A stretch of 64,000 bases of DNA from assembly GCF_000255115.2 (NCBI RefSeq), contig NC_018068.1, positions 3,257,977-3,321,976 of the forward strand, in the 5' to 3' direction. The first letter of the stretch is position 1; every line of letters begins with the position of its first letter. This document shows positions 21,456 to 23,986 of the stretch, piece by piece. The stretch comes from Desulfosporosinus acidiphilus SJ4. Its GTDB lineage: Bacteria > Bacillota > Desulfitobacteriia > Desulfitobacteriales > Desulfitobacteriaceae. Position numbers and translations under genes: made by a program. The notes below the pieces were generated by a model. That model was not told the origin of the DNA, ran no database searches, and was given only the letters and a program-made list of their open reading frames with translations.

Positions 21456-21564
21456 TGCTTACGAGGTTAGTTGACGGATTCGGGCTAAAGGTGTAAGCCC
21501 TACACGAAATTCGTGATTCACCCCAAGAAAGTCCCCCGCTCCTAACATAGTTGGGATTCAGCAT
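21456..21564 (-). promoter_or_regulatory. Cyclic di-AMP riboswitch (ydaO/yuaA class)
   Basis: The leader of the hydrolase gene carries hallmark strings of this class: GCGGGGGAC, TTGGGGTGAATC, TAGGGCTTACACC, TTTAGCCCGAATCCGTC and CTAACCTCGTAAGC. The closing helix TGCT/AGCA ends just before the gene's ribosome binding site, so control could act on translation; no terminator hairpin is seen between aptamer and gene. The class normally switches genes off when c-di-AMP is high and often governs NlpC/P60 or related wall hydrolases. Confidence 0.93.
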
Positions 21565-21593
21565 TTACTATTAGTCTATTCGTCTATGTTAGG
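21541..21593. repeat. 10-bp inverted repeat spanning the 5' side of the riboswitch
   Basis: CCTAACATAG and CTATGTTAGG are perfect complements. One arm is upstream of the aptamer and the other lies inside its 5' part, so pairing between them would compete with, or extend, an aptamer helix. Confidence 0.6.
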
Positions 21594-21693
21594 CTATTCG
21601 CCAGTATGTCTAAAAAGGCCTGCAATAATTCGTGGAAATTCTAACTAGCAATTCCATTATTTTTGCAACTCAGGAAACATTTAGTAAATCTAT

Positions 21694-21832
21694 CAAGAAA
21701 ACTTAGCCGGCCCTAAGCCTCCGGCGAAAGCGGCAGGTTAGTTGCACTTATGCCAGAGGACGAAGACACTGTCTTCGCACGAATTAGCTCATCTTGCAGT
21801 ATACAACCAAGGGTTATACTCTCTGATAGTAC
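21694..21832 (-). repeat. Dispersed repeat family 1, copy C (full length)
   Basis: Head CTTAG...CTAAG (compare CTTGG...CCAAG in copy A), core GTTGCACTTATGCC, central hairpin CGAAGACA/TGTCTTCG (compare GGCA/TGCC in copy A), tail GGGTTATACTCTCTGATAGTAC. It lies between the large RNA candidate and the riboswitch. Confidence 0.85.
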
Positions 21833-21868
21833 AAAAAACCGCCCCTCAAATTGAGGGGCGGGTTTTTT
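21833..21868. terminator. Strong bidirectional terminator ending the large RNA candidate
   Basis: A 13-bp GC-rich stem (CCGCCCCTCAA / TTGAGGGGCGG) with TTTTTT on both sides. On the minus strand it follows the structured region 21870-22465. Confidence 0.9.
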
Positions 21869-22460
21869 CTTGGGCCACAGGAGGCTAAAGAGTCAATATT
21901 GAGGCTTAGGTCAAGTAGGTTTTCCCACTGAGCTCCTTCGGTTTCCCATAAGGCGATTTCTCCTTTTTCTCAGCCTGGGATGTCACCATCACCAGAACTT
22001 GATCACCACTTAGTCCCCACTTCAATCCTCTCTAGTTAACGTTCTAGAAGTTTCCTTAACACTCCTAGACAATCTAGCCTCTTTTGCAGAAAAGCATTTC
22101 CGGCAGTTTGTAAGGCATCGGCCAACACCTTCCAAACCTCTTACAGCCTTCCCAACTTTTCCACCTCAAGGCAGGCTACACTGCACTAAGTTCCTTCCTA
22201 ATGCAGGTTCTACCCTAAGCCATAGCTATAAAAGCCACGCACTTAGGCCTCCACGGAAAAGGGTCGCGCCCGCATGCCATTGCGGATCCCCCTCATTCCT
22301 TAACCCCCAGCAGCAGCCCTCGACTGGGCGTCGAAAGCCACCACCAGGAACTTCATCGGTATGCCCTCGGCGGATTATTAGGCCCGCCTTCGATTGCCAA
22401 TCGTGCACTAGAATAACGCTCCATAGCCCAAAGTAAAATTAATGTCTCAAAGAATTTACA
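21833..22460 (-). ncRNA. Large structured RNA gene candidate, about 630 nt, class not identified
   Basis: No credible protein is encoded, yet the minus strand has a sigma-A promoter at its upstream end and a strong terminator at its downstream end. In RNA sense there are many hairpins: CTGG-u-GATG closed by a GUGA tetraloop (21975-21995), CTAGGAGT/ACTTCTAG, AAGGTGT/ATGCCTT, CTGCATTA/TAGTGCAG, CCTAAG/CTTAGG, CCGCA/TGCGG, GGCGG/CCGCC and CGATTG-g-CAATCG. It is GC-richer than its surroundings. Length and host type fit the OLE class of large Firmicute RNAs, but I cannot confirm this from sequence memory. Group II intron remnants are the main alternative. Confidence 0.6.
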
Positions 22461-22466
22461 GTGATT

Positions 22467-22495
22467 ATTTTACCTGATTATCGTTACTTTGTAAA
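22467..22495 (-). promoter_or_regulatory. Sigma-A promoter of the large RNA candidate
   Basis: TTTACA at 22495-22490, a 17-base spacer, and TAAAAT at 22472-22467 (minus strand). Start of transcription expected near 22460, within the non-coding region and 150 bases after the DUF711 stop. Confidence 0.7.
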
Positions 22496-22618
22496 AAACC
22501 TTTTAGCTAGTTATACCTTCGATAGAGCGAGCAAAAACTTTTATCGAGTTTCTTATTATCATAGAATCGAATATTTCCTACGAAAATCAGTAAAAATAAA
22601 GATAATAAAGCCTAAATT

Positions 22619-23986
22619 TTAATTGGACAAACTTGTAATGGGAGCAGGAATCCTACCTCCGCGCTTTATAAATGTTTTTGAAGAAAAGGGATGAATATCC
22701 ATAACCGGAGCACCACCCAATAATCCTCCGAACTCAACACGTTCCCCGGCATTTTTGCCGATGGCGGGAATGATTCGAACAGCCGTTGTTTTTTTATTGA
22801 TCATTCCGATGGCAGCTTCATCAGCTATGATAGCAGAAATAGTTTCCGAGCTCACATTCCCGGGCAGCGCAATCATGTCTAAACCAACGGAACAAACACA
22901 AGTCATTGCTTCAAGTTTATCCAGATTCAAAGCTCCGACTTCAACTGCATTAACCATCCCGGCATCTTCAGAGACGGGGATAAAAGCGCCGCTTAGCCCG
23001 CCGACATGAGAAGAAGCCATCGCGCCGCCTTTTTTAACCGCATCGTTTAGTAGAGCTAAGGCAGCCGTTGTTCCATGAGTTCCACACCGTTCTAAACCCA
23101 TGTTTTCAAGAATCTCCGCCACACTATCACCGATTGCCGGCGTAGGAGCCAAAGATAAATCAACAATCCCAAAAGGAACCTGTAAAGCCTTGGAGGCAGC
23201 TCGACCAATCAATTCACCCATCCTCGTGATTTTAAAGGCTGTTTGTTTTATAAGATTCGATAGTTCACCGAAATCTGCATCCGGGTATTCCTTGACAACC
23301 TTTGCCACAACTCCCGGACCGCTTACTCCAACATTAATTACACATTCCGGTTCCCCAACACCATGAAAAGCACCGGCCATGAAGGGATTATCTTCCGGAG
23401 CGTTGCAGAAGACAACAAGTTTCGCCGCACCAATACCGTCTTGATCAGCGGTTTTACGTGCGGTATCCAGAATAACCTCTCCCATCTTTAATACCGCATC
23501 CATATTTATTCCGGCCTTCGTTGTTCCAATATTAACGGATGAGCATACATAGTTTGTTTCGCTCAAAGCCTGAGGAATTGCCTCAATTAAGGCCAAATCT
23601 CCATTCGTAAATCCCTTTTGCACCAATGCCGAAAAACCGCCGATAAAATTAATGCCTAACTCATTGGCTGCCCGGTCTAAGGCCCTTGCGATTTTAACCA
23701 TTCCTTCCGGCGATAAATGAGCTGCCGCGATGGCTATCGGTGTAACTGCAACACGTTTATTAATAATCGGGATTCCAAAGCGTGACGAGACCTGTTCCCC
23801 AACGCTAACCAATTGACTTGCTTTTTTCACGATCTTATCATAAATTTTCCGTTCCAAAGAATTAATATCGTCTGTTATGCAGTCCAACAAACTTATACCC
23901 ATGGTGATCGTTCTAATATCAAGATTCTCTTCATGAATCATCTTGATCGTTTGTTGAATTTCTTCACGGGCAAATGTAATCGTCAT
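22619..23986 (-). CDS. DUF711 (PFL-like, UPF0210) protein
   Basis: 455 residues, the family's usual length. Contains [12 protein letters not shown], the glycine-rich [42 protein letters not shown], and the C-terminal [13 protein letters not shown]. The fold resembles pyruvate formate-lyase but lacks a proven activity. As in many Firmicutes and archaea, it lies just downstream of a small ACT-domain gene, with which it forms an operon. Confidence 0.93.

Follow-up and report, generated by a model that had tools for sequence, protein, structure and literature searches.

A stand-alone OLE RNA gene in Desulfosporosinus acidiphilus and the paired occurrence of ole and oapA across the genus

To our knowledge, OLE is one of the largest structured RNAs in bacteria that still lack an assigned activity, and we know of no organism in which its biochemical activity has been established. 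Published work describes OLE as a dimer (PMC12286853) that is brought to the membrane by OapA and binds OapC at a k-turn, forming an RNP with a protective role under cold, alcohol and Mg2+ stress (PMC12265935, PMC9723947, PMC11332333). OLE and OapA have been claimed to be inseparable, with MpfA standing in for both, and Fernando and Breaker report that OLE and MpfA anticorrelate (PMC11332333). Adjacency of ole and oapA is the commonest arrangement but is not universal (PMC12265935, PMC12054373). A survey of GTDB R214 species listed 2,822 Bacillota OLE hits and almost certainly already counted the copy described here (PMC11332333). Our literature search found no paper naming OLE together with Desulfosporosinus or with Desulfitobacterium, and nothing on unlinked ole in Desulfosporosinus or on paired ole/oapA deletions.

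We analysed a stretch of 64,000 nucleotides from the genome of Desulfosporosinus acidiphilus SJ4 (NC_018068.1, positions 3,257,977 to 3,321,976), hereafter the window, whose numbering is used below. Its minus strand contains a match to Rfam family RF01071 (OLE RNA) at 22440-21865 with 402.4 bits and an E-value of 9.8e-115 (cmscan), covering model positions 1-616 of 616; the gathering score is 50 bits. No second copy exists in the 4,991,181 bases on 3 contigs that were searched. The original prediction, made from the sequence alone, had put forward OLE RNA as its leading guess, and the end-to-end match supports it. OLE is a known RNA class, and the Desulfosporosinus copy adds no new one. At a permissive threshold, the other Rfam matches within this locus stayed below their gathering scores (SMAD5-AS1_4, RefA9 and others) and were taken as chance. 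The features of the locus are the following:

22467-22495, minus strand: ole promoter TTTACA-17-TAAAAT, with a predicted start near 22460
21865-22440, minus strand: full-length OLE RNA, from the cmscan match and covariation on 30 relatives
22350-22365, minus strand: 5' strand of the putative counterpart of the k-turn that OapC binds in H. halodurans OLE, placed by sequence mapping
21975-21995, minus strand: helix 16, a hairpin of the 3' domain capped by a GNRA tetraloop (GUGA)
21833-21861, minus strand: intrinsic terminator of ole, stem 21861-21839 (10 bp, 8 GC pairs) followed by a T run

Both the sigma-A promoter and the GC-rich terminator proposed earlier hold up in relatives. Promoter-consensus sites numbered 3 against 2.0 expected in shuffles, which alone is no better than chance. 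A site of the form TTTAC(A/T)-17-TA(A/C)AAT recurs 24-38 nt upstream of OLE in 11/11 OLE-positive members of the genus. A hairpin with a T run likewise follows OLE in relatives, and the terminator sequence of the window can be read as a terminator on the plus strand too. The predicted transcript would span about 630 nt, from about 22460 to 21833 on the minus strand.

The upstream neighbour of ole is a DUF711 gene (23986-22619). Directly after the terminator, a c-di-AMP riboswitch (21573-21440, minus strand, 94 bits) heads an NlpC/P60 cell-wall hydrolase gene at 21454-20756. The usual next gene, oapA, which encodes the essential protein partner of OLE, is missing beside ole. An OapA-like protein of 204 aa with the DxxxD motif DVVGD is encoded 193 kb away at C3:3473201-3473812 in the cluster ispA-DUF212-oapA-dxs; its identification relies on synteny, the motif and a weak similarity to CNNM proteins (E 0.02) rather than on a curated OapA model. 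Its homologues lie directly behind ole at two loci of the same order (L005, L006). These classical loci share the ispA-DUF212-...-oapA-dxs cluster with the genome studied here, but their ole sits between DUF212 and oapA, a slot that is vacant in D. acidiphilus. Reading of ORF starts assigned this classical placement to one family (f2). In the family of the window (f1) ole adjoins the DUF711 gene and/or the riboswitch-headed NlpC/P60 gene, and in a third (f3) it occupies other sites, for example adjoining bactofilin genes. The sites of ole differ across f1 and f3, and unlinking from oapA is therefore widespread in this order; since adjacency has been published as the most common arrangement only, an unlinked ole is in itself no contradiction. 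By the same reading of ORF starts, an NlpC/P60-like gene is still found beside ole at two loci of the family (L011, L015) where DUF711 is elsewhere. In one draft genome (G036) there are two different OLE genes of full length (C349:1577-2154, locus L007, and C486:7283-7870), of which one is divergent; given a completeness of 78% and a contamination of 5%, this draft may mix species.

Compared with OLE of the Halalkalibacterium halodurans type, the architecture is likewise full-length, the conserved structure and the core nucleotides are shared, and oapA and an oapC candidate are encoded, whereas ole is distant from oapA, has the DUF711 and NlpC/P60 neighbours described above, and no OapB was recognised. 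An OapB (YbzG) gene is present in about 60% of OLE-bearing species; in D. acidiphilus the map-infA slot holds no such gene and no third KOW match was seen in a Pfam test that had no positive control for OapB. The oapC (ybxF) candidate lies between rpoC and rpsL, and its best PDB match is YbxF. The base equivalent to C85 of H. halodurans OLE, which is needed for OapC binding, maps onto the k-turn at window position 22358 (PMC9723947); this base, C83 of the OLE studied here, is invariant in the alignment of 30 relatives. A candidate gene and a putative k-turn site are both present; binding of OapC is predicted.

Within Desulfosporosinus, OLE was detected in 11/30 genomes at 380-410 bits, and a permissive search of the other 19 gave nothing above chance, only fragments of about 13 bits. 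Full-length OapA is encoded in exactly the same 11 genomes. The Fisher p of 1.8e-8 for this association is overstated, as genomes were treated as independent although their counts are linked by phylogeny and independent losses are few. Among the genomes examined, the co-occurrence of OLE and OapA has two apparent exceptions: in G041, OLE runs off a contig end, and G056, a draft of 95% completeness, encodes OapA (G056:C83:38667-39272; L156, L060) without detectable OLE, possibly an assembly gap. Traces of deletion are visible at both sites. At the oapA site, the DUF212-dxs gap measures 30-132 nt in 17 inspected OLE-less genomes, against about 620 nt with oapA, and remnants of the oapA 3' end persist in G015 (residues 171-204) and G001 (residues 181-204), the gap of G012 being nearly identical to that of G001. 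At the ole site, no more than a short spacer separates DUF711 from the riboswitch in those inspected OLE-less genomes where the riboswitch was found, and in G015 a piece of 25 nt from the 3' end of OLE (96% identity) survives immediately after DUF711. A distance of 193 kb separates the two sites in D. acidiphilus, and in complete OLE-less genomes it is 1.7-2.5 Mb, so two separate deletions were needed each time. One large OLE-less group has a conserved promoter-like element (TGGATG...GGATACACTGTTGTAGGG) in the interval from DUF711 to the riboswitch (loci L174 and L176-L183, for example downstream of DUF711 in G022, G007 and G018). It was not found in the OLE-positive members checked and might promote transcription of the riboswitch gene or of a small RNA.

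The paired absence could instead reflect shared ancestry after a single loss rather than functional dependence. A tree of four genes (DUF711, DUF212, IspA, Dxs) resolves the OLE-less species into three groups and still tolerates a single OLE-less clade (p-AU 0.31). When a 960-aa dinG-like helicase was added as a fifth locus, a single OLE-less clade was rejected (p-AU 0.008), as was the union of the two large OLE-less groups (p-AU 0.002), while joining G015 to either of them was borderline (p-AU 0.042, 0.085); the groups were defined after the first tree had been seen, which makes these p-AU values somewhat optimistic. The single loss allowed by four genes is thus rejected with five. Moreover, one deletion cannot take both loci at distances of 193 kb to 2.5 Mb, and the deletion scars differ among lineages. 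Losses are favoured over gains because scars remain and outgroup genera have OLE. We infer that ole and oapA were lost together at least twice, probably three times, and regard shared ancestry as an unlikely explanation of the co-occurrence.

Counts of CNNM-domain proteins (PF01595) vary with OLE among genomes of the genus that are 90% complete or more. OLE-positive members encode 0-1 and OLE-less members 1-4, with means of 0.8 and 2.1, respectively (rank test p 0.0007, phylogeny ignored). A test on independent pairs was not significant for MpfA, with too few independent events. The excess of CNNM/MpfA-type proteins in OLE-less genomes agrees with the published hypothesis (PMC11332333). In G003, G006, G007, G010, G016, G017, G018, G019, G022 and G027, all of them OLE-less, CNNM/MpfA-type genes occur as tandem pairs with a distance of about 1.5 kb; no such pair was seen in a genus member that has OLE. 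Overall, we consider it reasonably probable that two unlinked loci of the OLE RNP were co-deleted in at least two, probably three lineages, accompanied by extra CNNM/MpfA-type transporters.

Separation from oapA and the complete loss of OLE in other members of the genus could also suggest that the gene of D. acidiphilus is a relic, moved away from oapA, decaying and no longer working with its protein. Compensatory changes in the RNA speak against such decay. The folding energy of the locus is 5.1 sd lower than that of dinucleotide shuffles, none of which (0/20) folded as stably, in line with the dense secondary structure noticed from the sequence. We aligned 30 OLE sequences from the genus, family and order of the window and projected the Rfam structure of 141 pairs onto them. 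Standard pairs fill 89% of cells, a share that drops to 38-48% if the partner strand is shifted by 1-3 columns, and 61/141 pairs changed on both sides versus 35.9 in shuffles; 0/500 shuffles were as high, and none matched any of five covariation measures. The conservation and covariation that had been proposed as a check are therefore present in relatives. Helix 16 (21995-21975), picked out earlier by its GUGA tetraloop, is a real helix in which 6/8 pairs show changes on both sides and all loop variants in the alignment remain GNRA (GUGA, GCGA, GCAA, GUAA). A full-length gene that retains promoter and terminator and accumulates compensatory changes among close relatives does not resemble true decay as seen in G015 with its 25 nt, and an intact oapA accompanies OLE in every OLE-bearing member of the genus and vice versa. 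We therefore hold a relic to be very improbable.

Two further readings are refuted. Size and structure alone would be compatible with another large ornate RNA, the remnant of a group II intron or a class not yet described, which the original prediction had listed as options; ROOL and GOLLD are likewise large, ornate and homo-oligomeric, and ROOL has been described as borne by prophages or phages near tRNA islands (PMC12286853), but neither has a sequence or covariance-model match at this locus, the Rfam models of ROOL, GOLLD and group II introns gave zero matches up to E 10 in 21500-22800, and OLE scores 402 bits over the whole length, leaving these options practically no probability. Equally negligible is a decayed protein-coding insertion, for which a 60-aa ORF readable at 22408-22226 could be cited: its frame is interrupted by stops in 27/30 relatives, lengths differ among them by numbers that are not multiples of three, conservation tracks RNA pairs, and the longest in-frame stretch in the locus has 70 codons, so the earlier view that no credible ORF exists stands. 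The higher GC content noted for the region is likewise found (0.50, against 0.27 upstream and 0.42 downstream).

We are highly confident that the locus is a functional stand-alone OLE gene with its own promoter, whose RNA would form a membrane RNP with OapA in trans and OapC and probably has a role in stress and Mg2+. Our data directly support the identity as OLE, the conserved structure, the promoter and terminator signals, the presence of an oapA gene and a candidate for oapC, and the joint loss of ole and oapA; the dimer, membrane site, protein contacts and physiology would correspond to what has been published for OLE of H. halodurans and clostridia. By this analogy, OLE of D. acidiphilus most likely acts together with OapA and OapC in the membrane RNP known from other bacteria. 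A vegetative promoter of its own would yield the predicted transcript, which most likely folds and dimerises as in the solved OLE structures. OapA, supplied in trans from its distant locus, would hold OLE at the membrane, and OapC (YbxF) would sit on the k-turn. The RNP may then help the cell to withstand stress and a load of divalent metal (Mg2+), a role extrapolated from an alkaliphilic Bacillus relative.

Desulfosporosinus offers a tidy test bed for OLE biology, as close relatives with and without OLE exist and two separate sites have been precisely deleted. The published claims on OLE, OapA and MpfA (PMC11332333) could be tested in this genus by swapping or deleting genes. If co-deletion with extra MpfA-type proteins is true, the genus would represent a natural genetic experiment for an obligate dependence between RNA and protein without operon linkage, and would point to MpfA as a replacement of the OLE RNP.
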